Of a DNA stretch of 64,000 bases, positions 22,271 to 52,075 are shown piece by piece. The notes under the pieces were generated by a model. It was given only the letters and a program-made list of their open reading frames with translations, had not been told where the DNA came from and did not search any database. A program made the position numbers and the translations under genes. The DNA lies in assembly GCF_037975245.1 (NCBI RefSeq), contig NC_092573.1:20739265-20803264 (forward strand), given 5' to 3'. Origin of the DNA: Apostichopus japonicus (lineage: Eukaryota; Echinodermata; Holothuroidea; Aspidochirotida; Stichopodidae). Numbering within the stretch: position 1 is the stretch's first letter; each line of letters opens with the position of its first letter.

Positions 22271-23367
22271 TCATTCGATGATCATACAGTCGTTGTCCGA
22301 GTCATCATTTTGAACACTGTTGGTCATTACGACATCACAAGGTATACTTTTCTGTTTCTCTGGGGTAGGTTCCGGTGTCAGCGCGACGGGTACGATCCGC
22401 TTTACGGGCTTGACCGACGATGGAGATGCTCTCTTGGCTATCGTGAATGGCCATTTGAGAGCGGCTACTTGGTGCGGTTGCACTCGTTGACTTTGATCCG
22501 TCTTCGTGTTAGGTGTTGTCTGCAGTTTTTGAGGTGGAGCCTTTCGGGACTTTGGTGTCTGCAGTTCTTGAGACGGAGCCTTTCGGGACTTTGGTGTCAG
22601 CTGTGGGATCGTCGCCACTACCGGTGACGATTGGGGAGTGAGAATTGAAATGTGACCGGCTGATTGTGCGGCGCTGGAAGATGCCGCGAGGGACTTGAGA
22701 GTGGCTGCAGCAGACTGCGTGGGGACCATCTGCCCCTGAAGAGGTATGGGTGAGGACACTCTAGGTGAAATTGAAGGGGACAGCATAGCCAGTATGCCAC
22801 CTTTGGAGGTAGTTGAATTTGATTGGGTCGATCCCTTCCCTCCGACGATCCCTGCTGACGACGGGGAACTTTGTGACGGGCTATTGGACGCTGCAGCTGA
22901 TTGGGCGGTTGCTCTAGGTTTACTAGGGTCAAATGGCTTCCGAGTTATAAACTTCCAAGTCGAAGGTATGGGAGCAGACTCCATATTGAACTCCGTGAGT
23001 ATGTGATCATGGACGTACCAACAGATTTTGGAGTAGCTGATTCTTTTATCTCGGACAGCAATTTTGGTTATCTTCTTCTCTAATTGGCGCTTGGAAATTT
23101 CAAAATCTTCAGCCGAGCGAAATAAGGGTGAAAACGCCCTGGTGGGTGTGATAGCTTCTTCCGTCTTCTTCTCTGTCGTGCTCTTAGGGGTACTTGCGGT
23201 CTGTCCTGTTGCCAAGGTGACGTCTGCTTTAGAAGGTGTGCCTGCGGTCTGCTGAGTCACAGACTGAGGATCGGTGTGTTTCTGTCTCCAAAACTCCTTG
23301 AATTCACGACAGAGGCTTTTGATGCCAGCGATGTTGCCGTGGACCAGTCGTATCAGATCAGGCATGG
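22271..23367 (-). CDS. CHAF1A: CHAF1A exon 13: winged-helix region and C-terminus
   Basis: 1097 nt to the TGA. MPDLIRLVHGNIAGIKSLCR matches human LLPLLHGNVNGSKVIIREFQ, and RISYSKICWYVHDHILTEFN matches RMCWYVHPQVLQSF, the winged-helix DNA-binding end. A Ser/Pro/Gln-rich tail of about 200 residues is longer than the human one, and includes a near-perfect 39-nt tandem repeat encoding TPKSRKAP twice (about 22509-22590). Ends in DCMIIE. Confidence 0.94.
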
Positions 23368-26300
23368 CTATACAGTAGAAAGGGATCAATAAAATGAATG
23401 AAAACAATTAGAAGCAGGGAATGTTATCGGACACCCCAGGGGCAAAACACTGATGAGCGAAGCTGCAATGTACCAAATGCACAATGTAGAATGTACAGTG
23501 ACGTTCATTCTCAGACCCTTAGTATTATCTATTAACTTATCATTTTAGCAAAAAGCAATCACATTACTACCTGCACTTGACTGTGAATTAGAAGCAGTTA
23601 GTAGCTATTACCATAGGTGTACAAGTTGACACATTATCAATAAACAACAACAACAATTTCAACCATTTCTTCTGGTACGCTGCCGAACACCTACCTTCCT
23701 TCCGCAAAGGTCTGACCTTATTGTGTACGGCCAGTATCTATGTTCCCTTACATCTGTGTTCCCTTACATACAATTTACACATTTTTATCAATAAAACAAC
23801 AACAAATGCAACCAATTCTTCTGGTACGCTGCCCAGCACCTACCTTCCTTCGGCACCGGTCTGATCTTGTTGTGTACGGCCAGTATCTGTGTTCCCTTCG
23901 TCCCCGACGTCCGACTCGATGTCTGTTTATCCTTCCCGGACTTTGCGACTCCGGTCAAGAGGATGGGCATGCTGACCAACGGCACCACCTTGAAACACTC
24001 CAGTGCCTTCCTGTCTCTCTCCGAGCTGCCCTTTGAATTCCTCCAGACGCAGCCGATGAGATAAGTCTTCAGGGCTTCCGTCTTCTTTCTCATCTCCCGG
24101 TCCCAATCCTTGGCCTTTGCAGCTCTTCTCTTCTCCCAGGTTTCCCTGTCATCTTCCTGTTGACACGGAGATGAAGAAGAAGAGGAAGGAGAGGAAGATG
24201 GTAGTATCGAATCAGTGATATCAATGTTTTAAACCCTGCTTGCATATATGCAATAAATAATAAAAATAATATATAGCGCGTTCATCAGCAACGCTGCTCG
24301 AAGCGCTTTACAGGAATTGAAACAAATAATATACAGGAAACATTTAAAATACAGGAAACATTCAAAAGCAAATAGTAGAGAAATATCGCCTAAAAGGTAT
24401 ACACCATAAAACCTATAATAGGATAGAAAATTACATTAAAGCTATGGTGATACAAAAATACTGTACAGTTCAAACATCAAAGGCAATTCTAAAATAATAT
24501 GTTTTTCAGCGATGTTTTAAAACTGGCAAGGCTTGCGCAGGTACGTATTGAATTCGGCAAAGGCATTCCATAGCTTGGGCGCACATACTGAAAATGCCTT
24601 ATACCCAGTTTTTTTCTTTGTTCTCATTTCTTGAAGCAGTCCCTGTGATATATATATATATATATATATATATAGCAAAACAAACTGACATTTACACCTC
24701 TCCCTGAAGCAGCTATTGTACATAATGTTATTTTGGTAGAGAATAAAAAACGAAAAACTTGACCAACTAAAATGACGACGGTCGGCATCTTTTGGGAAAT
24801 GAAAGTCCTGAGTTAGCAGAAATCTCTCACACCCGAAAGCTTGAATGTTTGTTTTCCCTGCCCACTGATGTACGACAGAAAACACACTCTGTTTTGAAGA
24901 ATGAACATATCGAAAAAAAATCGGATTTTATGCCTGTCGTGAAAGTTGACCATCGTTCTAATACATGTGTGTTGCAGTTCAGCCTTTGACCACCTGCACG
25001 AAGAGCAGACCAAAAATTGTTAGTCTTACAGCGCACTCTAAATGCAACGAAAAGGCAGTCTGAAAATAAATATTACAGCTGCCTAATAAGCCTGCAATTT
25101 GTTATTTTTTGGGGGGTGGGAGGGAGGGGGTTGGATGTTTTGATTGAATTGTTTTTGCATACTTCAGTACTTTACTAATGCAATATTTCAATCCACAATT
25201 GTGATTATAATTAGCTGATGTTTAGTAAGATGACCAGTAATTAGTGACGAGTGCAATTGACCAATCACTGTTCACATCGACTCTACAAGATGGCACTCTA
25301 GCTGTTTCATAATGGGGCTGGCCTTTCACACCGGTTAAGATTGGATGTTTTGCAAATGTGGTCACAATTAAATAATAAACTTCTGAGGGAAAAATTTAGT
25401 GTTCAAATTTTGTGTAGCAGTTTTGAAGGCTCTGAATCTATTCTCTTATAAAATTGTTTTTCTGTGTAAAATACTATGGTTGCCGTGTAAAATACTATGG
25501 TTGCCATGTTAAATACTATGGTTGCTGTGTAAAATACTATGGTTGCCGTGTAAAATACTATGGTTGCCGTGTAAAATACTATGGTTGATGTGTTAAATAC
25601 TATGGTTGCTGTGTAAAAATAAAACAATGCTAAACTGCTATACATCTTTGCATTTGCATAGCAATTGGACCATTTTACATGGCATTTTGTGATGCGATAC
25701 TGAATAAATTATTCCCTGACTCTGCACAAACAGTATAATGATGTATGAATCCCTATGATAGCCACGCATTATCATCAGCATTCATACATGACTAAACTTT
25801 CAATCATGATATGGGAATACAAGTCAAAAAGAGTGAAAAGCGTACAAATGTGGCGGTTGAACTTCTTCTCAATTTTAGATAGAACTATGAAAGACCATAG
25901 AATATTATTATCATATTACCTTTAGCCTATATATCATACACGGACAAGAAACATGAATTAATTATACATTTTGCGATGGGCGTCTCCGACATACAGTTCA
26001 GAAACGCAAGTCAAAACACTTCCTCGAATGAGTGATTGAACAGATGGCTGGCTTATTAACCCTTTAAATCAATCATCTATGTTTAATTTTAACCAAACAT
26101 TAATTAGAAGTTAGAGATTAAATATTATGATCTAACCAGGATGTGAAAGTGATATATCTCAATATATAGAAACTTACTAGAAACTTTGTACTTTAGAAAT
26201 TTAGAAGAGTGACATGTTCCATATTTACTTTGTTAATTTGCCTGGGAACTTTCCCATATTCAATGAAGACACGTTAAGGGGCTCTTCTGCTTTTAACAAT

Positions 26301-29300
26301 TTTTGTTCGAACGAGTGTCCTCTTCACTTATATATAAAGGAAAGTAGCTTTCCCTCCACTTATTATTATATCCAACCAATGTGAACAAGTCCACTTAAGT
26401 TTTAGTTAAATTTAGGAAAGTTAACTGTTTCAGAATGCGGCACACGGTTTGGGGCGAGTCTTCAATGCCTTTAATGAATATTTCTATCCTTAGAACCCGA
26501 TCTACCAAATTGAGTCGTCTGTCTGTGGCATGTTGCCAATCTGTCTGTCTGTGTTTTTGGCATTGTCAGTATATAACTAGTGTGTTCAGTGTTCACAGTA
26601 TTTCTTGATATACCCTTTACTCTATTTTCTTGCCTATAATATTCTGGGGTACATTCACTGACTACTTTTCATCACATCTCTAGCCCCCTCACCTCTTTCT
26701 GTTACTAATGAGGAATGTGTAAAAGTAAGTTGGCCTGACGTTTCGATCCTAGCAGGATCTTCTTCAGAGGCTAAATGACAAGTAACAGTAACAGAAGGGA
26801 CAAAAACACGCACAGAATACAGACAGGTTAATGAGCAGGGTGAACACAAAGAGAAAGATGTAAGGGGATTAGTAGACAAGGGACTAATGAGGAATAGTAG
26901 AAATAATACTAATGTGTCGCCAGAAGAAGTCAGCTGGTATCATACAGTATGAAAGCGTAAATATACAAGTCGCCTACGGTAAAACCCACAGAAAGTGGTC
27001 TGCTTCGCCTTGGATGGTTAAAAGATAATATTAAACCACACTATTTCCCCCACCCACCCTTCTTCAGAATGAAAGTTTTTGTAAACGAGTTCAGCAAATC
27101 TGGTCTTATGAAAGTGTAAGATGCTTTGGTTGAATATGTTCTGTTAACAAATTCATGCTTACTTTTCATTCTGTAATTGTAATTTGTCACGCATGAATTT
27201 TAAGTTGTCCTAGGGCTCTAATATTTCCGGGTTCACTCCCAGGTCTACATGTTTTTTTCCGGTCATATCTTTTCCTGGCTTCCTGCAGTTCGAGAGATCG
27301 AATGCTTTCACACGTGGACGTCTTTCATATTCAGACACTTTTACTTGTTAGTGAAGTCACATTCTAGCTCACATCATTTTGTCCCACATTATCCTTACAT
27401 GTCCTCTTTTTGTCGCATAAAGTTTATTAATATAAATATCAGATGACCAGTCCTAAATCGGTCCAGATAAAAACAAAATTGTTAAAGAAGGACTTACTGC
27501 TCCTTCCACTTCGTCTTCGGAGAGGTAACCGTGAGGAACAAAGAAGCCATCGTCCGACTCATCTCCGCTATCATTGTCATCTTCATCTTCAGTCTGTAGA
27601 AATAAAATAGGAACAAAACGGTTGCTATGCAATGAAGTAAGGGTTACAATCATGCACTTATTTATTACAAACGATTTTTAAATTGAATCAGTCAACAACA
27701 AATGCAGGTGAGCATTGAACAGCAGTCTATTTACACAATGGGGTCTGCAATAAAGTTACTTTCGACCTAGTTGTGCTACATTCTGCCAACCTTTCAAAAG
27801 GTAGGGGGTCTCCCAAACTCATGTCCTCATGGCTGCAAACTTGTTACCCCATCATAACTGTAATACAATACTTTCTACAAAAGTATTAAGATTTACAGGA
27901 ATATTTGCACATAGTAGTTTTGCATTCTCACTACTTTAGACCTCACATTTCTAAGATTTACAGGAATATTTGTCATAGAAGCTTTGCAATATTTGTAACA
28001 GAAGCTTTACATTCTCACTACTTTATACCTCACATTTCTAAGATTTACAGAAATATTTGCACTTAGCAGCTTTGCATTCTCCTTACTTTAGACCTCAATT
28101 TTCTAAGATTTACAGAAATATTTTGCACACCGAAGCTTTGCATTCTCCTTACTTGAGACCTCACATTTCTAATATTTACAGAAATATTTGTCATAGAAGC
28201 TTTGCATTCTCACTACTTTAGACCTCACACTTCTATACAAGTTGCACCTTGTTGCTTTCTGAGTCACTCCCAAGTTTTGTCTCCTTCTGTTGCGTCAAAT
28301 TAACAGCATCAGGAAATGAGCTTACGTGGGCCACCTCAAAATCCTTGGCAGTGGAGGTAGGGGTGGGGTGAAAGGGTATCTGGTGAAAGCTGGAGGGGGA
28401 AGTGGGTTGGGGAAAGGGAGTGAAGTAATGAGATGGAAAGGTGTGAAAAGATGGGAGGGGGTAACAAGAGGGAGTTGGGTGGAGCAGTGGGTGGTATCAT
28501 TTTGTATTTCTTGAATGACCTTGTGACTTACCCCTGAATCTGAAAGGCTTTCTCCAGGATCTTCCCATTCATCATCACTATCTACCTCATAGTCTAGTTG
28601 ATCCTTTAAACAATGAAAAGAAGACAATAAAAAATTTAAAATCAAAGTGAGTACAAACTTTGCAGCAAACTTACCATATTTTCTGATAAAATCTTGACCC
28701 TTTAAAATGTTTTTTTTGGAATGTGCAATCATATGCCATTCACATTCATAAATTTGGATGCAACACCTTTTCAAAATAATTTGTTTGGAACACATGTGCA
28801 CCTTTCAAGAATACTTTTTCTGTTGCCATGGATACATATGCTGCACAAGTTTGCTGGTTGAAACTTTGTGAACAGTCATCTTTAGGTACTGTTGTACTAT
28901 GAAAATTCAACGAAATTACTTCTCAACATTCTAGAAAAGCAAAAAGTCCCTTTTGAACTGACGTCTCACACTAAATATATAATCGTTTCTATCTGCAAAA
29001 TTGTCACTTTTTTAGAATATCTACATGGTACCAATGCCCAAGAAAACAATATCTTGGTTTGGCTGATGCAGGCAAAATCTCTATCATTTACTTTACAAAT
29101 TGCACGATAATGTATGGAAAAATATGATTCAAACAAAAATCTGAAAAATGATCTGAAGAAAAAATGACAGGAGCTAAAAATAGGACCATACCTTGTCTTT
29201 AGCAAAGGGTTTTCTCCCAGTAACACTAACACTCCTCTTTCTCCAAGTTCCAAAATAAGGAGGGCGATGATTCTCGTGGAATTGTAAAAGTTTGGCCTTG

Positions 29301-32300
29301 GCGGTTAGCTCCTCCGAAGATGACGATGGAACTTCCTCGATATCCGAGTCGTTCCTACAAAAGGAGAAATCGAGAGAGTGTTCGTGAAATGAGAGGTAAT
29401 CGAATGCAATCGACTGTCCAAAGTATGAGTTTGAATTAAACTGGACCGAGTGTAGAGACTGTTACAATAATTGCATACAATGTCGACACAAATGTCGACA
29501 CTTGCTGTAGGCTACCATAGAAATCACCTATTTAGTAGTCTAAACGAATTGTGCAAATTATAGTAAACATTGCTCAAGGAACCGCTCCTTGCACTCCCTT
29601 CTCCATTTTTTTATCTCATGTCACTGTAAAATACATATATAAACAATTAAGATGATTTCCCCAGAAAGTATTCTATACAAAAAAAAGTGGTAAATATCAC
29701 CAAGATATTTGAGGCCGGATCACAAATGCCAAAGAAGGCAAGTGGGGTGGGTCCAATGATGTCTTCCAGGACTACTTGTGGGGCTGTAAATACACCATGA
29801 AGTCCATGTTATTTACAATTTCATTTATATCATACACAATAAAAAATGATCATGGAGATTTCTCGGCAGTATATGACAATTTTAATTTTTTCCTCATTTT
29901 ATCTTGGCTTACTCGTCTTGCTCTTCATCTTTCATTGACCTCCGACTTCCTTTTGTTCTGCTGGATCGACCGATGTTGATTTGTCCAGATGAAAGCTCAG
30001 TTAGGTAATGCAAAGTTGTACTCTGCAAGAAAAAAATTCCCCAAAATTTAATGTATTCTTGGTCAGGTTCGGCCACCAAAAGCATTAAAAAAATTTATTT
30101 ATGACTTTAAGAGTGAAAATTCTGCACCAAGATCGTCTGACTACTTTCACAATTAATTCTGAATGATCTACAAATCTTTTGTTTCACTATCTTGCAACTT
30201 TTAACAGCTTTCAGTGGCGATGACTTTCATTGCTTCTTCATGCTGAAGAAACTTTTGATACAAACAATCATTAGTTTATCAATTATATTCAATTATTTCT
30301 GTTTTAAACCTTCTCACAGCGAGAGAATTGATCAATTGGTACTTCTCTTTGGTACTTCTCTTTATTGTTTATGTTTGGCAATGTTTGGAGTGCACCTACA
30401 GTGTACTAAAGAAGAGCCATGATTCCCAAACTATGGGTCCTGACTAGAGAAATTAGTCCCCAAGCGTTCACCAAAGGGTCCCAAGCCAAGTATTCATGTT
30501 TCTGATTGAATCGGACAGTAAGCTTCCTGTCACAAAAGGTTTGATAAATATTTATGCGTTGTTGTTTTACAATTTATCAGTCGGTGTACAGGTAGTTCTC
30601 ATTACTAACAAAGAAGTATATCTTTGGGTGAGTTTACGCCTTAGCAATTGATGGGTGGGTCACCACAAGAAATGCACCGTTTTCCCATTTGAAATTGGCC
30701 TCCCACTTTGTAAAGACATCCAAAATGAGCTAAATAAGTCAGATAGCCACCTGACGTGACGTCTAAGTTATAGGCTATTCGGCTACTCTCACAAACACAT
30801 GTGGCCGCTTGGCGATGTGTATTAACTGCCCCCCCCCCCGGGCCGACATTATTATAATGGTGTGCTTTGAGTTACTCACCTGACTGGAGAAGTTCCTGTC
30901 AAATTCTTCTTTCACCTCTTCGGCTAGAAATTTCTTAGTGCGAATGGTCGGCGCTATAACCATATCTCTGCGGAGTTGGAATGCTGCGAACGGACCGCAG
31001 TCCTCGTAATGAGTTGTAGTTGGGGTGGAGTCTGGGCTGGGTTTCTTGAAGAAACTTTTGAAGAGCAGTTGTTGTTTCTGGCTTTTCTTTATCTAGAATA
31101 AAACAAAGAGAAGAGAAGAAAATGAAACAGTAAAATATTCTTTAGCATTATTACTGATGTGAATGAGCTTTCAATCCTTATGAATATAAACATTCACTAT
31201 AAAATGCACTAAACTTGTACTTTCTTGTTTCACAATGGTGTGAGAGCAGGCATTATTCAGCTCGTACAATTGGAGCGGGGAGTGGGAGGGGAGAGGAAGG
31301 TGTGTACAAAGTTTGTTCCCTTTAGCATTCATTGATTAATGACACTGACATCCTCATTCATTACCAAGGTAACAACATAGATCTGAAACTCACAGCTTCT
31401 TCCTCTTCTTTCTTTTTCTCATCTTCTTGCTTCTGTTTTTCTTCAAGTTTCTTCTTCTTCTCTGCATTAAGCTGCCTACAAGAGATACAAATTGGATAAA
31501 CAGCTTTTAAAGAAAATGCCAGTGATAACAGTACCCACATAGCTGGCCTACATAGTTCATAAGTCAGCCAGTGGTTATGTGATACACAGCGCCTGGCTTC
31601 ACTGGTAACATGGTTTTAGAAGTTAATGATAGTGATAACAGTACCCACATAGCTGGCCTACATAGTTCATAAGTCAGCCAGTGGTTATGTCATACACAGC
31701 GCCTGGCTTCACTGGTAACATGGTTTTAGAAGTTAATGATAGTGATAACATTACCCACATAGCTGGCCTACATAGTTCATAAGTCAGCCAGTGGTTATGT
31801 CATACACAGCGCCTGGCTTCACTGGTAACATGGTTTTAGAAGTTAATGATAGTGATAACAGTACCCACATAGCTGGCCTACATAGTTCATAAGTCAGCCA
31901 GTGGTTATGTCATACACAGCGCCTGGCTTCACTGGTAACATGGTTTTAGAAGTTAATGATAGTGATAACAGTACCCACATAGCTGGCCTACATAGTTCAT
32001 AAGTCAGCCAGTGGTTATGTCATACACAGCGCCTGGCTTCACTGGTAACATGGTTTTAGAAGTTAATGATAGTGATAACAGTACCCACATAGCTGGCCTA
32101 CATAGTTCATAAGTCAGCCAGTGGTTATGTCATACACAGCGCCTGGCTTCACTGGTAACATGGTTTTAGAAGTTAATGATAGTGATAACAGTACCCACAT
32201 AGCTGGCCTACATAGTTCATAAGTCAGCCAGTGGTTATGTCATACACAGCGCCTGGCTTCACTGGTAACATGGTTTTAGAAGTTAATGATAGTGATAACA

Positions 32301-35300
32301 GTACCCACATAGCTGGCCTACATAGTTCATAAGTCAGCCAGTGGTTATGTCATACACAGCGCCTGGCTTCACTGGTAACATGGTTTTAGAAGTTAATGAT
32401 AGTGATAACAGTACCCACATAGCTGGCCTACATAGTTCATAAGTCAGCCAGTGGTTATGTCATACACAGCGCCTGGCTTCACTGGTAACATGGTTTTAGA
32501 AGTTATTGATAGTGATAACTGTACCCACATAGCTGGCCTATATAGTTCGTAAGTAAGCCAGTGGTTATGTCATACACAGCGCCTGGCTTCACTGGTAACA
32601 TGGTTTTAGAAGTTAATGATAGTGATAACAGTACCCACATAGCTGGCCTACATAGTTCATAAGTCAGCCAGTGGTTATGTCATACACAGCGCCTGGCTTC
32701 ACTGGTAACATGGTTTTAGAAGTTAATGATAGTGATAACAGTACCCACATAGCTGGCCTACATAGTTCATAAGTCAGCCAGTGGTTATGTCATACACAGC
32801 GCCTGGCTTCACTGGTAACATGGTTTTAGAAGTTAATGATAGTGATAACAGTACCCACATAGCTGGCCTACATAGTTCATAAGTCAGCCAGTGGTTATGT
32901 CATACACAGCGCCTGGCTTCACTGGTAACATGGTTTTAGAAGTTATTGATAGTGATAACTGTACCCACATAGCTGGCCTATATAGTTCGTAAGTAAGCCA
33001 GTGGTTATGTCATACACAGCGCCTGGCTTCACTGGTAACAAGGTTTTCACTTCTCAGTGGCATTCAAAGAGCCAGACCACAGTGGTTACATGGCTACCAA
33101 TAACCATGTGCATTTGACGAGGCTGCCGATGGTTAAAGATCACCAAATAGTTTAGTTAACATGGTTACCAGTAGCTACAGTTAACAAGGCTGCCAGTGGT
33201 TAAAGATCACATCATAGTCGAGTTAACATGGCTACCAGTAGCCACAGTTAACAAGGCTGCCAGTGGTTAAAGATCACCACATGGTCAAGTTAACATGATA
33301 CCCAGTAGCCAACAGTTAACGAGGCTGCCAGTGGTTAAAGATCACCACATGGTCGAGTTCACATGGTTACCAGTAGCCACAGATAACAAGGCTGCCAGTG
33401 GGTTAAAGATCACCACATAGTTACCATGGTGATGATACTGTACTTACTCTAATTCCTCCTGTTTCTTTTGTCTAGCTTCCAGCTTCTGTTTCCTCTTCTC
33501 TTCTTTTTCTTCCTCTTCTTTCTCTCGTCTCATCTGCTTCTCTTTCCTCTTGGCTTCCTTCTCCTTCCTCGCCTCCTCCTGCTCCAGCTGTCTCTTACGT
33601 TGTATTTCTTTCTTCTGAGCCTCTTTCTCCTTCCTCTCCGCATCCAGCTTCAATCTCCTCTCCTCTCTAATTCTTGCCTGTTTTACACAAAAATTTAGTC
33701 AATATTTCAATTAAAACCTCAACTGGTATATACTGTATATATGAATTTAACATTTTGGAGAAAAACAAACACATTTGTATGATCAATGGAAGAGTGCACC
33801 ACTGGCAAAATTGAGCACCTCAGCTGTGAGCCGATGACAATATTGACTTTATTGTACACCCCACCATCTGAGAGCGTGTGAGATAACATCGGTAGGCCTA
33901 CAATCGAGGAAAGCGTTGAGAGAATATTAACGAAGAGTTTGAGAGTACAAACCGGTCTCTTGGACTTACCTTTTCCGCTCGCATTTTCTGCTTCTCCTTC
34001 TCTTTCTCTAAAGTTTTTTCTGATTTAGGTTTCTATCAAAGGAAAAAACATGCAAGAAAACATATTACATGTATGAGGTATGGCTTTATGTCAAGTTCAG
34101 CCAATTCTAGCCAAACTTCCACAAAATGATCCCTAAACATCAGCTTTCTTCATCACGACAGGCTAGATTGGAAAAATAATGACGTTTCATTGTTTGAATT
34201 CGTGAATGTTCAAGGAAACGTGTCAAAGCTTAGCAATGAACCAAGTCTAGAGGAGACTGAGTTAGCCCTATGTGCCAGCAAAGCTTCTAACTTTAGTCCA
34301 AGGGATCCAGAAATTCCCTCTTAGTCAATTTTTAATATGAACCTAATTCAATCTTAACATACGTTCAGTAAATAGTGCAGCTGAGTTTGTTAATGTTAGA
34401 ATTAATATACTATTCTATTACAGCTTATACATGTTGTCAATTCATAACACAGAATGCAGAACTTGCTTCTTAAATCAGCAAAATACACACCCCTCTATTT
34501 CCTTTGCCCTTTTCCTCGATGGCAGACGGACTGCCGGAAGATGTTTTCTCCGATTCCGGTGAGTCTTCCTCCTGACTGCCGTCGCTGGATTGCGTTACCT
34601 CGTCTACCCTATCTTCGTTCCCGTCGCTCGCCGAATCTACCGATCCTGCCGATGAAGCCTTCGAAGTGTCTAAATTCTCACTTCCTTGACTCTGATTCAG
34701 AGCATGCTGTTCATCTGCACAGTCTTCCATATCCTCCTCATCCTCCACGAAGATGACGCACTCTGAGGTCGAGACCTGGGGCTGCTGGGTGGTCTGCAGG
34801 AATCCATCCAGGGAGCTGGACTTGGGAGGTGGTTTGAAAGGGGACTGGGCCCTCGGTGCGGGAGTGACTGCTTCCGAGGAACTCGTGGGCACCTGTTCTT
34901 CGTCGTCGACGATGATCACAATGGGAGACGGCTTTCCTACGGACTTTGGCGAGCTGGTGGCACTGGCCTTCGTGGGAGTCTTCTTCGGCTTGCTTCCGCC
35001 GGTTTTCAAGGAGGGTGAACAGATCTCCTCCGAGCTCACTCTCCGCTTCTTGGAAGCCGGAGACACCGATGGAACGATGGTCATTTGGCTGTTCTTTGGT
35101 GCAAAGGGCAAACGAGCTGAAAGAAGATCATTTAAAACAAGATTACCTACGATCAAGTCAATGTTATCAAATCAATTACGAGACTTAGGGCATTCTGAAA
35201 GACAAAACCAAACCACTTCAGGGAAAAGCTCTATGAAGTCATTATCTCTGAAAGGGATTGAAACAGCTCCTGGAAGTTTATCTACATAAGTACACTGTTT

Positions 35301-37780: not shown

Positions 37781-38300
37781 ACGATTACTTAACCGATTGT
37801 GTTGGACTGAACACAGAAAGACGTATATTGGTGCCTGTGTAGTAAATAGTATACGCAGGATGATATGCGATGCAAATCCTAGCCTATAATAGTTGTAAGG
37901 CATTTGATGTGTTAAAAGCAATATTTAGGTCAGGAATATATGGATTTATGCTTATGGGATATTTAGAGGAAAAAACCACGAACGAAGCTTTCACAGATTC
38001 ATCCATAAAATATGAAAAATTCGACTAGCTTATCACGAATTTGGTTTTTTCTCTCAAAATTCCACAACTGTTTTCTGACTTTTTAAATCGAAATCACTAA
38101 ATTTTATCTCACCTCAACCTTTGAACTACCTAATAACTGTTCAAAATTTCGAATATTCTGTCTCTTAACGTTGACTCCAATCAAGAAGTATAAGTTTTTT
38201 TTTGTTTATCAAGATAATTTTTTTTTTTACTTATGTGCCTATATAAGCCTATGTTGATTGTATATGTGTATAGATAATTATTACAACTTTAGGTCCTTCA

Positions 38301-38340
38301 GCCTCTGAACTTAGATATTGCTAGGATCGAAACGTCAGGC
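38301..38340 (+). other. Decayed copy of hammerhead-like motif
   Basis: Keeps GCCT...AGGC and GCTAGGATCGAAACGTC but reads CTGAACT instead of CTGANGA, and helix II has mismatches. Same family as 26733-26771. Confidence 0.45.
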
Positions 38341-38469
38341 TCTCCTACTTTTACAGAACTTTATATCTTAAAATCTTGTTTTGGGTAATTTCATTAATTC
38401 AACTTTTCGAGCATTTAATGATGGTAAAGTTGTTTATGGGCCTATCTGTTTTGGAAAATGTTCTACTTA

Positions 38470-39640
38470 CAGTCTGAACTTTAGATGAGGAAGTCGAAAT
38501 TTCGACATTTTATCTCGGAATCTTCGGCGATTTTGCCAATCGAAAAAAAATTGAATATGAAAACTTACCTCGAAATTTCAAGAAACGAGTCGAAATTTCG
38601 GACTTTATGTCTCAAAATTACGACTCAATTGTAATTTCGAATGATTTAGTTGCGACCTAGAAATGTTGCCATTCTATGTCGGAATTTCCGGCGGCTACTG
38701 CGGTATTTTGATCTCGAACTTGAATTTCGAATCAATTGAGTTGCAACTGACTTTTTCATGTTTACTAATAGTATTTGTACCAGAGGTCATTGTCTTAAAC
38801 TCTAGAAGTTACCAATTAGGACTTATATTCGGCATAAATTTTTTTCCTAGGAGGGTTGTGAATGAATGGAACGGTTTGCCTGAGAAAGTTGTACCGTACC
38901 TCCAAGTATATAGTGTGAATGGGTTTAAGAATGTTTTGCGAAATTTCAAATTTTATAAGTCTCGGAATTGTTTAGGTTTTAAGGGTCACTGTTTATTTAT
39001 CCCAATTCAGTAATATTTTTATTATCTGCTACTTGGGAATGTGTATTGTATATTCGTATTTATCTTATATACTTTGTTAATCGATCACTTTAATTTTCAC
39101 AATTATATAGTCACTATTTAAGAAATAGGTATTGTTTATTTACGATATTGGAAAAACAATATTGTACATTGCATTCAAAGTTTGAATAAAAGATGGCAAC
39201 AACAAAAAAAGTCTCGGAATTGCGACAGTATATTATGTTGTATCTCTAAACTTCGACTGTATATTCTTGAAAAGTAACGTCATTCTGACATCGAAATTTT
39301 GGACTGTTCCTCGAAGTTTCGACTGTATCAAAAGTTTGACCCTCAATTGCACAAAATTCCACTCAATTTTATTTCAAAATAAATTTCGATTTCCTTTTCG
39401 ATAGTATATGTTATATTAAAAAATGTCGACTTATTATTTTCCAAATTTCCATTGCTTTATCTGCAGGATATAACGACATTTTTTAACCTTTGGTTTTATT
39501 GTTGCGAAATTTCGACATACAAAGTCGAATTTCGAGGTGATCGTTTAACCACGACTCTGAACTTATTGTTATTTCTGCTTGTTGACGAAATTATGATATT
39601 TTTCAAACGAAAGTTCTTATATCAAAAGTCCAATTTCGGC
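38470..39640. repeat. Zone of clustered TCGAAATTTCGA-like palindromes
   Basis: More than a dozen variants of the palindromic word (for example GTCGAAATTTCGAC at about 38491, others near 38590, 38680, 39315, 39500, 39520) in about 1.2 kb. They are unusually CpG-bearing for this AT-rich intergenic DNA. The zone is interrupted by the LINE fragment at about 38760-39209. No clear fixed period. Confidence 0.5.
38760..39209 (+). mobile_element. LINE 3' end, 5'-truncated
   Basis: Encodes GINFFPRRVVNEWNGLPEKV then SVNGFKNVLRNF, the classic C-terminal FF--RVVN-WN-LPE-VV---SVN-FK phrase of non-LTR reverse transcriptases. A 3' UTR and GAATAAAAGATGGCAACAAC tail follow. Inserted within the palindrome-rich zone. 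Confidence 0.8.
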
Positions 39641-40952: not shown

Positions 40953-41419
40953 GATATATTGTCATCTCGATTACAGAACTTACCTTATTGGCTCATGCAA
41001 CCATAAATATATAATATGTGTATGCGGTACAACAACAAAAAGCAGTCGAAAATCACTAGTGTTTCAAAATTAGCAAAATATAGCATCATTTTGCACATAA
41101 GCACCGTCCATTCTATCCAAATTTCGCAAAGCGGTAGCGGGAGACACCCCTTCTCTTAGACCCACCCCCCTGGGCGACTTAATATCTCATCCACTTCCCC
41201 CAAGTATACAAAAAAGTGTTTGCCCCACTAGAGTATATTTTACAAATTCATATCGATTGGCTAACGAATCGTACATTAACATACATACATCTCTTGTCTC
41301 TGCCACAGTCCTTATGCGATATAACAATTACCTTGACTGATGACTGAATGCCGAACACCTTCCCACCCCCCCCCCTCCCCGCCCCTGATAAACAACACAC
41401 AGATGTGAGATATATATGT

Positions 41420-42501
41420 CAGGCGCGGCGGAACGGAAAAATTGTTGGGGGGGCTAATGTGTGGAGACTATCTAAGCGGAGCGCCACCATCGGTTGGCGC
41501 GGAGCGTACAAGAAAATTTTGGTTTTTTTCAAACCCCCAGATGGCCGGAAACGGCACTTTCCGAGTGTTTTATGCTGCGAATACCTAGCCCTAAAATATG
41601 GGTCTCAAGCCTGCAATTTCTCAGATTGCACGTAAAAGTCTGTAAAACATTGTAATTTGTATATTCGATGGTTTATTAAGAGAGTAGCTATTACTCGTAG
41701 TGTACTCGCAAAGATGTTTTTGAGTGTAGTAAGGGCAGTGTCGGAGCTAGAGTATTGGTCAGGGAGGGCAAGAATGGTCTTTAGGGGCGCTTTCGACACT
41801 ATCTAAGCGGAGCACCACCACAGGTTGGCGCGGAGCGTACAGAAAATTTTTGAGTAAAGATACTCCCTAGATTGCAGGAAATGACCCTTTCTGGGGCCTT
41901 GCTAATTTGCAGATAAACGGAGAATAAATAGGTGTCGTCGCCATTTTGTCGGAAAATTACACCAACAGAATATGACAAATGTCAATAGGTATATGAGAGC
42001 GCAATAAAATAGTCAAAAATCGCGAATAAGTAAAAAGTAGTGAAAAGCTGAAAAGGGCGCCAGCAGTCCATTTGAGTCCGTCGGGGGGGGGGGGCATCCG
42101 CCCCCTGACTGTATATATGGACGCTCCGCCACTAAGTAAGGGGATGTTGGAGAACTGGCTGAAATGAGGCAAGTCATTGGCCTAAGACGAAGTTGTGTTA
42201 CGCTTACCGGTACTCACACTCACTGCTTCCACTTTTCACGGGGCGTGAAGACGCGGTTGGGGTGACAATGTGGTCTATAGCCAGGGGAAGGGCCGAGGGT
42301 CCCCCAGCAATTACTAAAATTATTACACCTATAGAGTATACGTGTGCATCGGACAGATCGACAAGTATGCATTGAAAAATGGGCAGATGCACGTTTCGGA
42401 GCCTTGGTAAATATTGGGGGGGCTTATCATGCATTTGCCCCCTCGACTTTTTTATTGGGGGGGCTGAGCCCCCCCAAGCCCCCCTGGTTCCGCCGCCACT
42501 G
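41420..42501 (+). mobile_element. Non-autonomous hAT element (1082 bp), block A
   Basis: TIRs CAGGCGCGGCGGAAC and (right end, reversed) CAGTGGCGGCGGAAC. Flanked by a perfect 8-bp duplication ATATATGT (41412-41419 and 42502-42509). Block B has the single empty site (GAGATATATATGTATGTGTC). It is non-coding. Two copies of the conserved family motif are in its left arm (41467-41513, 41798-41843). It lies 272 bp past the stop of GBA copy A, possibly in its 3' UTR. Confidence 0.9.
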
Positions 42502-42773
42502 ATATATGTATGTGTCGGTGTTTGTTGAAGGGTATAATAGAGTGGGTAAGTGAGGAATTCAACTTTACTAGACTTCAACATCATTTTCATTGCTTTACCA
42601 ACTGTCTTTATCGACGATACAAAATTCACATAATAAATAGTTAGATATGCTACATATGTTTCTGCAATCATCAGTTGATTGTTAAATACATATATTTCTG
42701 CGATGATCATTTTTTTTACTCGGTTTCGTCCATGCATTGTGTCCCAGTAACGGCGCTGCATGTGTATGTTCTT

Positions 42774-42870
42774 TTACCAAATGTAAGTTTGTATTCCTCT
42801 GGCGGAAACCTCCATGCTCAAAAAGCCAACACTTACGTCAAATATCTGCATTTGTATCGTTCGTTCGGTT
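42774..42870 (-). CDS. GBA1: GBA copy A exon 10: C-terminus
   Basis: 97 nt after CCGCAG. With the AA from exon 9 it reads [20 protein letters not shown] then [12 protein letters not shown] and stop. It matches human [20 protein letters not shown] and IHTYLW. It is too short and frame-shifted to appear as an obvious open frame, but phase and homology fix it. Confidence 0.9.
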
Positions 42871-45800
42871 CTGCGGACAAATAAATGAATACAAAATGAG
42901 AAAAAAATATAAACTATGAAAGAAAACATTAAAGAAGATACAACGTACTTTTCCTATTTTACGGTGTATTTTTCTAATCTGTATGCACGAGCAAAGTTTA
43001 TTTTGATCAAACAATTTCAGGCTCAATTGTGCGGTATAAATGAGTGTAGGTAGGGTCAATAAGTTGAGGGGGGGGGGATGTCAAAAGGGGGTAATTGGGT
43101 ATATCATTGTACAAGAATTATAGTGTCCACATACTTGTTAAGGAATATTGCAACCATTTTCCCGTCTGGTCTTTGGAATGCGATATACTGGAGACGTGTC
43201 GGACGGCCTGCTGTCATTTCAACTCGAACTGAACCGGGTGGTACAAATTTACTGCAAATGAAGTCATGCATATTCATCGCCATCAATCAATCAATCAAAC
43301 ATTCATCCATTCATTCAATCAGTCAGTGACATTCTTAAGGGCCTAACTCTCAAATACTGACCGAAATATAGGCTTTCATATGATACTTATGAATGTTTCA
43401 TACTAACTGTTCTTCACATATTCCTGTAATGTGTTTCATGTCTGATTTGGATTTGATGGTAATTGTATCTTTCAAGTCGGCCATATACTCCGTCAATATA
43501 TGAATAAATTCTTAAAGAAATATTGAATGTTGTAAAAAATGTAACCCTTATATCAATTGGAACGCCCGATATACGTTTTTCTTTGGAAATTCCATAGTTA
43601 CCTGAAGTGTCCGAGATGGTAGAACATTGGTTGTTTATAGAACACGTCATTTACACTATCCACAATGATTGGGCTGTCCACAAAGTTGCCAACCCAGTTA
43701 GGACCACCTTGTAGATCAAGGGCTAAATTCCAATCAACCCAGGCTCCGACCCAGTTGTTAAGATCCTGAAAATACAACCAACAATATGCGTGCATACCCT
43801 ATTACACAACATTTTAAGTGGGTCACATTCTTAAAGTGGGTTCGAAGCGACCACCGTGGCGACGGGGCATTTTAATGGGGGTAAATTGGGGACGAGAATT
43901 GATAATTATAAACTTATAGACTTCTTCTACAATATGATTATCTATCTTTACCACCCATACTGTTGTTACACATTCATACTATATATAACCTGCGTACTTC
44001 TATCACTTGTTTTAAAGCCACGTAACGTTGCTATGACGTTTCTTGCTAACGTTCGTTCGCCACCAAAATGACGTCAACCCGCCAAGGAGAGGGGCAGTGG
44101 CTTCATAAATACAAATAACCTTGTCCAAAAGTTAATCAATAAAAAAAAAGGAAAGAAAAACAAGGAGCTACTTTAACACCTCCAAAATGTCCTGGCTGTA
44201 TAGCTCCCCTCGTTCCCAGCTCCCAAGTATGACGTCATCCCCTTCAAAGAAGAATACTCCTGCGCATGCTTCGGAGTTCAGCATAAAATAATCCGGGAAT
44301 TCATCATGTGTCTCTCGCAGACGACGTGTACTGATAATACGATCGTAGTACCAGTGTAGGGCGATTCCATTCACGTATGGGGTGACCTCAGGATCACTTA
44401 AAACCTGAAATTACAACAAACCAAACTGTACTTCATATCCAAAAAAAAACGCCAAAAACGACAACATTCGACTTCTGAGCCCACTTACTTAACAAACCCT
44501 TATGCATTGTAAATCGACAGTAAAACATGCAAGCATGATGTTTTGCCTAGTAGGTTATACAAAAATAAATATATTGAACATTTTCCATTCATCCCCAGAA
44601 GCATCAATATCACTTGATTTATCCAATATATAATGGTTGAAATTTTCAGTATATACACTCAACGAGTTCAACACAAATATTGAATTACCTTACCTCTTTC
44701 CTCTGCTGAAATATACCTATACCGACTTGCTTTACAAAAGCGAGTATCCTCAGCTCCCCCACCCCACCACACCCACCCCACCCCCAAACACACACACACA
44801 CTGACAGGATCCAGGCTATACCACTAGTTTTCATATAATACTTGAATCGTTATACTTACAGATCGTGCCCATTGCGGTAGTAACCATCGTTGATCATCAA
44901 GGATCATATATTTGAGGTCACCATATCCCCTGGCAACTAGAGTCGGTCCCAGGTCCTGTTTGATAAATTCCTTGCTAATGTTCGGTCCCAAGTACATACA
45001 TTGGAAGTCATACATTGGAACTAATCCAGCGGATGGTTCGTTTTGAAGAGTCAAACTCCAAAATGTCACTCCCTGTTTTTCGTATTCCTCCAAAAATCTA
45101 ACAACAACAATAACAACAAAAAAGTAAGAATTACTAAAGATGATTCTACACCCACTTAACCTGAGTGAGCATCCGCAATTGATTACTTCATCAAATACTA
45201 AAAGTGGTATTAAAATATAGCCTGCACTGATAGATCGTTATTTTACGTCGTATGCTCTTGTACATAACGTTGTAAAACACTGAAACAATATCATAAGTGC
45301 ACCGTAAAGTTCCTATTATGTGTCAATAGTTCTCCCAGAGGCCTTGATAATATCTCATTTTATCATAACTTTATACAGTGACATTATATTAAAAGCCAAT
45401 GGCATAACACGTTGTGTATTGTAACACGGTGTAAATTGATGACAAACTTACCGGGCGAAGTAATTTGCCCATGTCTTGTAATGTTGTCCTCCTGGGTCAC
45501 CGAAGAGTCTTCCTCCCCCCTTCATCCTACCATTGGTCTTCATCCATCCAGGGGCCGACCACGGTGAAGCGAATAACTTGATGGGCGCAGGACTCAACGA
45601 CATGGCTTCCTTTATCAATGGTATCTAACAAAATAAACACACACACGCACTCATATCAAGATATAATTATTTGTTGGAAGGCACGATAAGTTAAACGAGA
45701 AAGAAATTAACCCCCCAAAAATCATACTTTCTTTGTTATCTCCTACCTCTCCTCTTCCCCCTGTTAGTTTTTCCTTCTCTTCATCCTTTGTCTACTAATC

Positions 45801-48800
45801 CTCTTACATCTTTCAAGTTTGTGTTCACCATGCTCATTAACCTGTCTGTATTCTGCGTGTGTATTTGTCCCTTCTGTTACTGTTACTTGTCATTCAGCCT
45901 CTGAAACAGATCATGCTAGGATCGAAACGTCAGGCCCTCTTACTAATTACACATTCTCCTACACAGGCTCTTTAGTGGATAAGCAGTTTGCTTACAGTTT
46001 TGTTTGAGTTTGAAAAACAATTCCTGTCTGTATTGAGAGGCCATCTGGGAAAAGTTATACGGCTCACCGAGTTACTCTAAACTATGCAAAAATTGAAATA
46101 AAATAAATCAAATGACCCAAGATTTGTAGGTATTTTTTTTGGTCATCTCTTGTGTCTTCATACCTTGTAGGAGAGATCCTCCTGCGTGAGCGCGAAGTTT
46201 TCGAGGTCAAAATCTCCATCGACGTCATCGTATGAATATTCATGAGTTGAAAAGTCCGTACTCGCCATTGGAACACGCGCCATATTATACTCTATCCCTG
46301 CATTATAGAAGAAAATATCTCGTACACTTGTAATATTGATAGTTTTCCTTATACTTAAATGGTCTGTCAAGTTTATAGGAAGAAACAAATACTCAAACGG
46401 TAACCCCACCCCACCCACCCCACCCCTCTTTCCAATCAAAACATGTGGATGTATCTGAGAAGCAGATCGGACCTCTATACAAGAACTGTGTCACCTTTTC
46501 CCGTTTTTGTAAATTTGCATAAAATGCATGCATTAAAATGAAGGTCTGTAGATACGCCTACATAACGATAATCAGTCGCAACGTGGAAATGCTTTCAGCG
46601 ATCTATAACACTGCTGATACTAGTTTAGTTTTGTTTTGAAAAGTGTTTGTTTTCAGAAGAGTACAAAAAATCACGCAAGGGATTTCGATTTTTCTCTTCA
46701 TTACTTAAAAATGCGACTACAATACTTCCCTGCAACCAAATATATCGGTTGATTGAACAAGGAGGAAAGTGTGGCATTTTATTTGTTCAGCATATAAGTT
46801 TAAAACTCTTTTACCTTCTGCGGAAAAGTAGGATTTCATGAGATTTTCTCTTGTTGTTTCTGACAAACCCATAATATTAATGCCAGCCGAATCAGAGAAG
46901 GACCCTCCAAACCCAAGAATCTCTTGATATTTCGTCCTTTTATTGACTGTAAACGTCACGCCAGTACCTAAAAGAATAGAAGGAAAATGGAAAAAAAAAA
47001 GCAACATTAAATTTCTCTCACTTACCATAACCTTAGTAATTAAACAATTTAATGACAATGTTCCAAATGATCAAACACAAATGTATAGTATTATCGCGTC
47101 TCGACAGTTTGCAACAACAGTTACAAAATATTTACCAATGTTTTGTGCAATTTAGTCATAAATATATTAGTTTTAAGAAAATGAAAATGTCTCAGTCAGG
47201 GGAAAGAATATCTGAGTACCTACAAACATTTGGACATTATAGTGACTAGTATTTGATTTTCTAGCATATTTTCGGTCAATACTGGGATGACTTTTGATAT
47301 GAATGCGTCGTACGCAAGATAGTTAGTTACACACCTGGGTACTGTGGAAGGTTTCTTATACTAAAAATCTGCTTGACCATTCTTCCCGCCCATTTGCTTG
47401 ACGTATACACAACAAAATGTCTTCCCGGCACGTAATCGTCAAAGTCCTCCACACTGTCACAATAGTCTGCTGAACATTCACAGACGAATGTGACGTCATT
47501 TCCGGTTCCGTACTTCTTCACGCACCCAGATGCGCCTAAAACAAGAGCAGACAAAACTGATGTTCGGCTGGATATATTTTATTCAGTTTCATTATTATTA
47601 TTATTATTTTTTAATTAATTTTTAAGTTTAGACAACGGTGCTGATTTTATGACATATTAATCAACATAGGCTATATTGAAGGTAGGCATTCTTACATTAT
47701 GATTCAGTTCTGTGTTCACTTTCCTGGAGTATCTGTTAGACGCAGTGAACACATAAAAATATCGTTGACTAGAGTTGGTATCGAAAAAATATATCATATT
47801 TATACGGGTTACATTCTCTCTAATGAAATAACTGCCATGAGACTTTATACAGTAAACGGATCACTAAAGCACAAATCGCATATGTGTTTCACTCATAGAA
47901 ATTGATAAGGATTTCTATGGTTTCACTTCTTACAGCTTATAGGTCTACACATGCGAGTCAATCCTGGGGGGACGGGGAACATGTCCCCGCACTTTTCGAG
48001 ATATGGGGACACAAATGTCCCCCCTGCTTGTGCACATTTTTAAACCACTTACCTATACAGGGTCATAATTTGTTACAACTCTTATATAATTCATTTATAT
48101 AATTCATTTATTTGTTTTATCGCCAATCATGTACAAAGGGAAAGGAAGTCTCCTAAAAAGTCATAAAAGACTTAACAAGGTAGGAGACTCCGTGGGAGAA
48201 AAGAAAAGAAAAATGAACAAATATTGATAATACAGAATATACGTAATGATTAAATATACAGTAATAATATCCTAATTATATTCCCTTTTTATTTTATTCC
48301 CCTAAATTATATTCACCTTTATGTAAAATTCTTAAAGAACGCGAGTTCAGTCAGTCGACAATAATTTTGTAATTTCTGTACATGCATGATGAATTTGTTC
48401 CGCATGCGCTGTCCAAAATGAATCGTTTGGCACGCGATATGTGTTCCATCTAACACACACAATATGCATACATAGTGTCTGAGTGATAGGCCTACAACAC
48501 GTTCGTATACGTATTCTGCTGCGTATATAGCTGTAGCAGTGACAGAAAAATTAATGTTATAAGTTTGAAACATTTTATCTTTATTTTAAGGCTGTTTTGG
48601 GTGGTAGAACTTAGGTGTAGTATGCGCAGTGAGCCTACTCGCGAACGGGGTGCCAAGGTGTTGGCCCAATATTTTATTTTTAATTATTATTGTCAACTTT
48701 TTTAGGGTAGTCCTGCTCAGTGCAGAAGCACTGCTTTCCAGAGGAGCCCTCAATACAAAATACACATACAATGTTATGCAGTAGAAAAACGGTAAACATC

Positions 48801-50085
48801 CAAAAGCACAAAAAGGACGGCAAAAAGATAGACAAACAAATATCAGACATGTAAACAAAATATATAAGTTTACATATTGCCTTTAGAAATATAAACATTT
48901 GGCAAGCATTTCAAATTTGGGGGAAGACTGTTCCGCGACCTGCTTCTAGAAAATTTAAAGGACTTTTTACCATTCCCAGATCTAACAGGAGCAAATAAAA
49001 CATTATTAGAGTAGCTAGATCTAGTTCTGTGAGAATTCTGAAAGAACTTGAACAACAAACGCCAAACATTTATACTTCACTCCCCTCTTACCTGTCTCTC
49101 AACACTAACGCACCTTCCTAAACATAATATCACAAGAGAAGCTTGGACAGATCGCACATTTGGTATGTAATTGTACCACATTGAGTACAAAATGCCTAAT
49201 TTTGTGGGCGGAGGTCAAAGGTCGTTTGAGTTCACCAGGTGTCAAATTGTAAAAAAAAACTGATTTTACACAATATTTCAACAAGGACAGATGTCATATT
49301 TAGTATGTTGATGTATCACATTTAGTACAAGAAGCCTGTTGCTGAGGTCCATGGTCCTTTCAGGACAGCCTGTGTCATTGTGAATATATTGTTTGTCACA
49401 TCACATTGTATTTAAATGTATTACTAAGATCAAGTTTGTTGTACACCCTCACTATACATCATGTCAAAACTGCCCATGTTACAACATCGAAACCACGATG
49501 CATGTTTGCATCTAGGAGCCAATGGCTACTATTTTTTCCCTTCTGTACAGCACTGGTTATTAATGTTGTTTACTGGGTGGGATAAACCGGATTGAACCTT
49601 AGTTTGTGGTTCTTTCGGCCGAACAATTTTTCGATCCAAGTCTCCTGGAAAACAAGGACCATGGGTTTTGTATAATGTATTTCATTTATCTACAAAATAA
49701 TGCAAGAAAATATGCCAAATGTACTGAGAATATCTATTATTTCAATGACCAAGTGCATATGATACAGAATTAAATTTAAAAAAATGAAATACCCAAAGCA
49801 AACACAATTAAGAAACCAAATAATAACAGTGTACAACGGGCATATTAAGAGAGGCTATGCGTTGCTGTTGTTGTAAGGACTAATTCGACTTAATCAGTTT
49901 CAAATGACCAAGTACAAGGAAAGCAAAATAGCCTACTTATAGTTGAAACTTACAGACCCTAAATCAGATATCATCCATGCAATGAGGTCAACAATTAAAA
50001 GAAAAAATGAAAAGAACTTACCCAAAAAGAGTACTAGAAACCAACTGATATTAACATATAATACGTCCATGTTGATATGTGCCAT
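42774..50085 (-). CDS. GBA1: Lysosomal glucosylceramidase, copy A (GH30, complete)
   Basis: Hydrolyses glucosylceramide to glucose and ceramide in the lysosome. Exons 5' to 3': 50022-50085, 47335-47535, 46815-46967, 46164-46297, 45452-45624, 44860-45097, 44180-44404, 43602-43765, 43135-43251, 42774-42870. Total 1566 nt, 521 residues (human precursor 536), all phases consistent. Signal peptide 1-22; four N-terminal Cys as in the human protein; [34 protein letters not shown]; acid/base Glu262 in NEPSAG; nucleophile Glu366 in NSEACAG (104 apart; 105 in human); [33 protein letters not shown]; and C-terminal IQTYIW. No break seen. All catalytic motifs are intact, so activity is expected. Exon 7 uses a weak GTGTTA donor. 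Confidence 0.96.
44180..44404 (-). CDS. GBA1: GBA copy A exon 7: nucleophile glutamate
   Basis: 225 nt. HWYYDRI aligns with human HWYLDFL, and NSEACAG with the human nucleophile loop ASEACVG. The donor is GAG|GTGTTA; reading past it gives VLK and a stop. The next exon starts [13 protein letters not shown], in agreement with human LLYHVVGWTDWN. Confidence 0.92.
44860..45097 (-). CDS. GBA1: GBA copy A exon 6: acid/base glutamate
   Basis: 238 nt encoding [20 protein letters not shown] then [20 protein letters not shown]. The Glu of NEP is the general acid/base of clan A glycosidases. It ends [13 protein letters not shown]. Confidence 0.94.
45770..45990 (+). mobile_element. Hammerhead-family repeat in GBA A intron 4
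   Basis: Same family as 26704-26893 (shared CTACTAATCCTCTTACATCT, CATTAACCTGTCTGTATTCT, GGATCGAAACGTCAGGC). The motif at 45897-45935 has CTGAAAC in place of CTGANGA, so the core is broken. Confidence 0.6.
48084..48300 (-). mobile_element. LINE 3' tail present only in block A
   Basis: The minus strand ends TTTGTACATGATTGGCGATA then AAACAAATAAATGAA, a common LINE 3' terminus. Block B at about 59620 jumps from TTGTTACAACTCTTT to CAAATTCTTAAAG without it, so it was inserted after the duplication, or lost from B. Confidence 0.6.
48590..49060 (-). mobile_element. LINE remnant (RT C-terminus), block A
   Basis: The minus strand encodes [20 protein letters not shown] then [20 protein letters not shown], the YNTRS...GKKSF-F-G---WNSLP end of non-LTR reverse transcriptases. 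A 3' UTR with GAGGGCTCCTCTGGAAAGCA follows. It is part of the duplicated block; its partner is at 62575-63090. Confidence 0.75.
49080..50021. repeat. Intron 1 of GBA A with diverged 133-145 bp repeats
   Basis: At least two diverged units near 49140-49400 with GGACAGAT, CACATT-AGTACAA and GGAGGTCAAAGGTC, related to the array at 63610-64000. The rest (49450-50021) shows nothing recognisable. Confidence 0.6.
50022..50085 (-). CDS. GBA1: GBA copy A exon 1: signal peptide
   Basis: Encodes [20 protein letters not shown] and LG, a hydrophobic secretion signal, ending in phase 1 before GTAAGT. Joined to exon 2 it gives [11 protein letters not shown]. The start may be the ATG at 50085 or the in-frame one at 50070. 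A TATA-like TTTATAA is about 50 nt upstream. The exon lies about 1 kb outside the duplicated block. Confidence 0.8.
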
Positions 50086-51536: not shown

Positions 51537-51775
51537 TGTATGTATGTATTTTAGATCCTCCTGCAAGCAGGAACTCACGGAGATGCCTCATTGGCTTATC
51601 AACGCCACAAGCTGACCGAAGTCAGTCTCTTACATTCATATTTAACGTCCATGATTATGAATTGTCAATTGTCAACAACTCTGTAACTGGACGACATACA
51701 TTAATCTTGGAGTGACTCGAACCGGGGACCTTATGATTGGAAGGCACCGGCATTAACCACTGAGCTAACACTCCA
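51537..51775 (-). mobile_element. tRNA-derived SINE (copy 2, with head)
   Basis: Minus strand begins GGAGTGTTAGCTCAGTGG (A box) and has GGTTCGAGTCACTCC (B box at 51709-51723), giving a tRNA-like head of about 65 nt. The body is shared with 181-353, and the tail ends in AAAATACATACATACA. Both RNA polymerase III promoter boxes look good. Confidence 0.8.
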
Positions 51776-52036
51776 CTTTGGAACCAGTATTGGCAAAACA
51801 TATGTATCATTCAAGGAAAATGAACAATGCAGTAAATTCAGAGAGAAAGATTGAAAAAAAAATAAAAACAAGTAGAGTAGCTTGATGATGTCACATTTAG
51901 TATACTTTAGGACATTGCTCATCGTGGATTAGGGCTGGTTATGTCATACAAAGAGAAATGAAAACTGCACCTTATACAAGTTCATTATTTGCAGATGTAT
52001 TAAATATCACGTCATAAGTAAACCTTTAATCTAACC

Positions 52037-52075
<39 letters not shown>

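Follow-up and report, generated by a model that had tools for sequence, protein, structure and literature searches.

A minimal hammerhead-like motif of probable Penelope-like origin in short retroposed copies of the holothuroid Apostichopus japonicus

Minimal hammerhead ribozymes of Penelope-like elements (PLEs) are reportedly the subject of a primary paper by Cervera and de la Pena from 2014. A paper by Lunse, Weinberg and Breaker from 2017 is said to bear the words "cleave RNA as dimers" in its title, the same idea of dimer action that the original prediction had put forward for the motif described here. According to excerpts of three reviews, PLE hammerheads occur by the thousand in many metazoan genomes (PMC7761336, PMC6155905, PMC6466107); they are described as minimal type I variants without helix III which may cleave as dimers (PMC7761336), helix III being usually absent (PMC6155905), and PLEs are listed among the RNAs with double-hammerhead structures (PMC6466107). 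For a coral, more than 6000 type I motifs are given in the sections consulted of PMC7229834, with canonical ones making up at most 1508 and PLE-like minimal ones the rest, and some departures from the hammerhead core still cleave, as stated in excerpts of PMC10085705 and PMC11620745. A second group of related systems are the metazoan non-LTR retrozymes, which in the available passages of PMC7229834 and PMC7761336 appear as small non-coding repeats with a type I hammerhead; their repeats measure about 150-300 bp and PLEs are their suspected helper (PMC7761336).

The most detailed comparison is offered by the template RNA of PAc (Poseidon of Anolis carolinensis), a PLE, for which the available part of PMC11167929 prints the hammerhead ccu-cugagga-u-gccugc...gugggc-gaaac-guc-agg. 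In the same part of that article, PAc RNA was cleaved only upon addition of the PLE protein, mutants in C3 or G8 lost cleavage while the double mutant partly recovered it, and an endonuclease-dead protein still supported cleavage. Cleavage was dispensable for insertion in vitro, and RNA-seq reads starting or ending at the PAc site were, in that part of the article, not found. When the letters of the motif were searched in the literature, PMC11167929 was, by title, the only article with a PLE as its subject.

The analysed stretch of DNA, referred to as the window, comprises 64,000 nucleotides of A. japonicus (contig NC_092573.1 of assembly GCF_037975245.1, positions 20,739,265 to 20,803,264), and all coordinates are counted from its first letter. 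The following features are needed for the description of the locus:

26733-26771, minus strand: minimal type-I hammerhead-like motif (from sequence, descriptor and fold)
26717-26882, minus strand: retroposed insertion of 166 bp, ending in TTTTACAC (from the BLAST repeat and the flanking duplication)
26704-26716: target-site duplication of this insertion, 3'-side copy (13 of 13 identical)
26883-26895: target-site duplication of this insertion, 5'-side copy (13 of 13 identical)
45787-45951, plus strand: second insertion (aligned stretch, exact ends not fixed)
55811-55979, plus strand: duplicated copy of the second insertion (aligned stretch)
38296-38354, plus strand: third insertion, 59 nt, 5'-truncated, 3' end TTTTAC (from alignment)
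38283-38295: probable target-site duplication of the third insertion, 5' side (10 of 13 identical to 38355-38367)
38355-38367: probable target-site duplication of the third insertion, 3' side (10 of 13)

On re-reading, the minus-strand letters originally given for 26733-26771 matched exactly, the 39-mer being GCCT-CTGAAGA-A-GATCCT-GCT-AGGATC-GAA-ACGT-C-AGGC. Stem I is formed by GCCU/AGGC and encloses the core CUGAAGA, stem II by GAUCCU/AGGAUC with the loop GCU, followed by GAA, and the predicted cut site is the C of GUC. The position of helix III is occupied by a palindromic ACGU without a loop, so that a single molecule is unable to form this helix. The blocks do stand in textbook order, as had been proposed; one extra A between CTGAAGA and stem II had been written out in that proposal without being flagged as a departure. 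PAc carries one extra nucleotide before stem II as well, and therefore it is not a defect peculiar to the window copy. A protein-coding origin of the motif was considered and rejected, the 94-aa ORF that crosses it being without a Pfam match.

Compared with PAc, the conserved blocks CCUCUGARGAWG and CGAAACGUCAGG are identical at 10 of 12 and 12 of 12 positions, which makes 22 of the 24 conserved-block positions, and the GUC site is common to both. Stem II and its loop differ in sequence but stem II pairs in both RNAs; by reading of these two sequences, four of the six aligned pairs differ on both sides. An AUG start codon overlaps the motif in PAc, whereas AAG stands at that place in the window copy, and in PAc the start of reverse transcription lies 111-118 nt inside the ORF, whereas the window copies end about 20 nt past the predicted cut site. 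In the minimum-energy fold of PAc stem II is kept and CUGA pairs with UCAG in place of stem I. With the minimal PLE hammerheads in general, the window motif shares the type I layout, the missing helix III and the dispersed occurrence in an animal genome, and for both an action as dimer has been proposed.

The motif is located near the 3' end of the 166-bp insertion. ORFs on the minus strand to either side of it carry the Pfam domains CAF1A_dimeriz (28322-28804) and CAF1-p150_C2 (22271-23407), so the insertion apparently lies in a CAF-1 p150-like gene with the motif on the sense strand and would therefore enter the pre-mRNA as a lone copy. Short tandem arrays flank the motif within this apparent gene, at 25464-25618 with a 21-bp unit and at 27988-28235 with a 66-bp unit. 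Elsewhere in the window an array of a 110-bp unit extends from 31521 to 33047 (13.9 copies, 98% matches) and is followed by a 67-bp tandem array at 33120-33421.

Within-window BLAST revealed a repeat roughly 170 bp long, situated at 26.7k (minus strand), 45.8k (plus) and 55.8k (plus), and a piece of 63 bp at 38.3k (plus). Three relatives of the motif had been announced at 38301, 45897 and 55925. They exist, at 38305, 45901 and 55929, all on the plus strand, but the latter two trace back to one insertion that was duplicated together with about 10 kb of flank: both copies lie within a segmental duplication in which 44400-46082 and 54418-56109, offset by about 10.0 kb, are 92% identical across 1704 aligned columns. 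The insertions in the window consequently number three instead of four. In the first duplicate, Glyco_hydro_30 is matched in Pfam by three ORFs, which point to a glucocerebrosidase-like gene, to which the 45.8k copy is oriented on the opposite strand. As a whole this duplication spans 41000-59500 with an offset of about 10.0-11.5 kb, and the long stretches compared in it are 90-93% identical. In and beside the duplicated region there are also long inverted repeats of 82-347 bp (41420-42504 against 57511-58656, 92-99% complementary). A dispersed direct repeat, 95% identical and 14 kb apart, occurs at 48704-48923 and 62738-62957.

Only the 26.7k copy among those in the window has CUGANGA, GAAA and NUH in hammerhead order together with stems I and II. 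At 45.8k the CTGANGA box is broken (CTGAAAC) along with one pair of stem II; the 55.8k copy has the box and one stem II pair broken and the GUC site changed to GCC. The 38.3k copy, truncated just before the motif, likewise has a broken box and one broken pair in stem II.

The ends of the insertions are similar to each other. At the 3' side those at 26.7k and 38.3k coincide at TTTTAC(AC) and the 45.8k copy ends similarly, in ATTACACATTC; at the 5' side, by reading, the insertions at 26.7k and 45.8k agree within about 3 nt at CCCTTGTC. Since the 45.8k copy still resembles that at 26.7k where the target duplication of the latter begins, and shows no clear target duplication of its own, its ends are not fixed. 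For the 13-mers flanking the 38.3k copy six other shifts were tried, and these agree at only 1 to 5 of 13 positions. Three independent insertions thus stop at nearly one 3' place, about 20 nt past the predicted cut site, and one of them is 5'-truncated; the distance from cut site to 3' end, which is short and possibly fixed, is the least ordinary feature of these copies. Target-primed reverse transcription leaves such shared 3' ends, along with 5' truncation and target duplications.

No reverse transcriptase or GIY-YIG domain was found with Pfam up to E 0.1 in the scanned ORFs of the window, which were 28 of the 29 ORFs of at least 110 aa (34738-35127 being left out) and two shorter ones, a selection in which short decayed pieces could be missed. 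The ORF at 38645-39013 (plus strand), whose start lies some 290 nt beyond the truncated copy at 38.3k, has no Pfam match and ends in VVNEWNGLPEKVV...VNGFKNVLRNF, an end which presumably resembles the C-terminus of non-LTR retrotransposon proteins.

The alignment of four rows, representing three insertions, allowed a comparison of stems and core. The stems are paired in 92.5% of 40 cells, whereas in slid versions of the alignment 17.5 to 45.9% of the cells pair; three stem cells are broken, two of them by the same change in the duplicated copies. Two stem pairs show a one-sided change which keeps the pairing, each to U-G. Compensatory changes, by which the original prediction wanted the stems to be checked, did not occur among the four window rows (two-sided pair changes: 0), and a column-shuffle control, in which 500 of 500 shuffles reached the observed values, was uninformative for so small an alignment. 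Conservation of CUGANGA, another touchstone proposed, turned out unfavorable on these few, old copies: the box is intact at 26.7k and broken in three of the four rows, which fits the decay of dead copies. The statement that stem I and GAAAC are kept better than CUGANGA is true of the aligned rows, i.e., of a handful of changes in three insertions. Against the 45.8k copy, 26718-26883 shows 3 mismatches in the 39 positions of the motif and 11 in the 124 aligned positions of the rest, with 5 gap columns; against the 55.8k copy there are 4 in 39 with one gap column in the motif, and 9 in 124 with 8 gap columns in the rest. Motif and remaining element have diverged to about the same degree, and the window copies show no sign of retention for the ribozyme. 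They are old and decaying, and what stands at 26.7k looks like an ordinary ageing copy, not like a new type of ribozyme.

For the formation of dimers the energy model gave -21.3 kcal/mol for the double hammerhead against -23.0 kcal/mol for two monomers, both being surpassed by a long duplex that runs through the near-palindromic stem II (-30.8 kcal/mol). Because the model does not favor the double hammerhead, an action as dimer is suggested by the published family and not by the computation. The earlier description of the motif as PLE-type with ACGT for helix III and a possible dimer agrees with the PLE hammerheads in the parts of the literature cited above and with PAc; by this analogy it is supported, and it is already known in the literature.

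Whether such a motif could arise by chance was judged from descriptors and folding. A strict descriptor (CTGANGA, 0-1 extra nucleotides, stem II of at least 6 bp, GAAACGT, H, stem I of at least 4 bp) matched once in the window, at the 39-mer, and not once in 1000 dinucleotide shuffles, both strands being searched, so that the hammerhead-like motif as originally observed is real. With the stems eased to 3 and 2 bp and GAAACGT kept there was again one match in the window and none in the shuffles, and the 31-nt core with up to three mismatches had three matches in the window including itself, with 0.00 expected (100 shuffles). A second motif or tandem partner was not found in the window by the strict descriptor. 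The Rfam hammerhead covariance models did not match the motif: at the gathering score the window had no match at all, and the 13 matches up to E 10 belong to other families elsewhere in the window, none of them a hammerhead and none overlapping the motif. Stems I and II and nothing else make up the minimum-energy fold of the 39-mer (-11.5 kcal/mol, z -1.5). An equal or better energy was reached by 14 of 200 shuffles, and in the centroid fold, unlike in a hammerhead, part of the CUGA box is paired; folding energy alone is therefore unremarkable. A chance look-alike in unrelated repeat DNA could appeal to this z value and to a much looser descriptor, which was met 13 times in 300 shuffles, i.e., about 0.04 times per shuffled window, so that a vague hammerhead alone is weak evidence. 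It could also appeal to the ease with which stem II is formed: a tighter pattern run on genomes and viral contigs had 5 of 73 bacterial or viral matches with a stem II of at least 4 bp (4, 4, 5, 5 and 6). Stem I, however, never exceeds 1 bp in these five matches as against 4 bp in the window motif, and together with the empty shuffles of the strict descriptor and the near-identity to a PLE hammerhead this makes a chance origin scarcely credible. The five matches were rejected as relatives, as were the viral-contig matches to a broad pattern, which looked chance-like: among the matches listed, the outer stem II by a greedy count reached 4 bp in 9 of 121 and was longer in none, 6 or 7 of these nine being, by eye, near-copies of one sequence. 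Two further patterns gave 0 of 11 matches with a stem II of at least 4 bp in viral contigs. One contig with two matches, a candidate for a tandem PLE (L109), encodes phage-like proteins as judged by eye and was also discarded. BLAST of the element against plasmids and phages had no match, and at the sensitivity used no relatives were found in the prokaryote and virus collections.

A further reading takes the element as SINE-like, with the GGATCGAAAC block serving as B box of RNA polymerase III and the resemblance to a hammerhead being incidental. The consensus of this box is GWTCRANNC, GATCGAAAC fits it in the form quoted here, and both the shortness of the element and its target duplication are in line with such a reading. 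Against it, ARAGORN found no tRNA in the sequence and neither a tRNA nor a SINE RNA is among the Rfam matches; a fitting A box at the usual distance was absent by eye, so that the tRNA-like head with A and B boxes of a tRNA-derived SINE was not found in the element. Moreover, a B box leaves CTGAAGA, the stem II arm and the GTCAGGC arm unexplained, while the conserved blocks are common to a PLE hammerhead, and we regard this reading as very improbable. More can be said for a free-standing non-autonomous retroelement of about 166 bp, retrozyme- or SINE-like instead of a truncated PLE, which has fixed 5' and 3' ends and a PLE-type hammerhead and borrows the machinery of PLEs; it is a sub-case of the preferred explanation, with which its odds overlap. 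The agreement of the 5' ends at 26.7k and 45.8k speaks for it, as do the repeat length and suspected PLE helper of metazoan retrozymes in the excerpt of PMC7761336. That 5' end, however, is present in two insertions only, one of which no clear target duplication bounds, and the third copy is truncated. In the passages available on them, known metazoan retrozymes are tandem repeats with canonical type I hammerheads that make loop-loop contacts; no such tandem unit was found here, where the copies are single and dispersed and each insertion has one minimal motif. We consider this reading possible but rather doubtful.

The explanation we prefer, with a probability of roughly 85%, is that the 39-mer represents a minimal PLE hammerhead motif in a short retroposed copy, whose source was either the pseudo-LTR of a PLE or a small PLE-mobilized element. 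In the RNA of the parent element the ACGU of one copy would pair with the ACGU of another to give a shared helix III, and the GCCU/AGGC arms would pair crosswise into a double hammerhead cutting after GUC, a cut that is taken over from the published PLE hammerheads. Judging by the shared 3' ends, the start point of reverse transcription would be fixed some 20 nt downstream of the cut, and insertion would produce target-site duplications of about 13 bp, as seen at 26.7k and probable at 38.3k, some copies being 5'-truncated like that at 38.3k. As a lone intronic copy, the motif at 26.7k would probably cleave little or not at all. A more far-reaching version, which we think unlikely, is a PLE-dependent SINE, i.e., a non-autonomous element of about 166 bp with fixed ends and a dimer ribozyme, in which the PLE protein would recognize the hammerhead region and priming would take place about 20 nt downstream of the cut.

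The motif thus is an example of a PLE hammerhead which stays recognizable in dispersed and decaying repeats and is undetected by the Rfam models. If a PLE-dependent SINE were true, it would connect what PLE hammerheads do with the recognition of the template or with priming, since the insertions end a similarly short way past the cut site.
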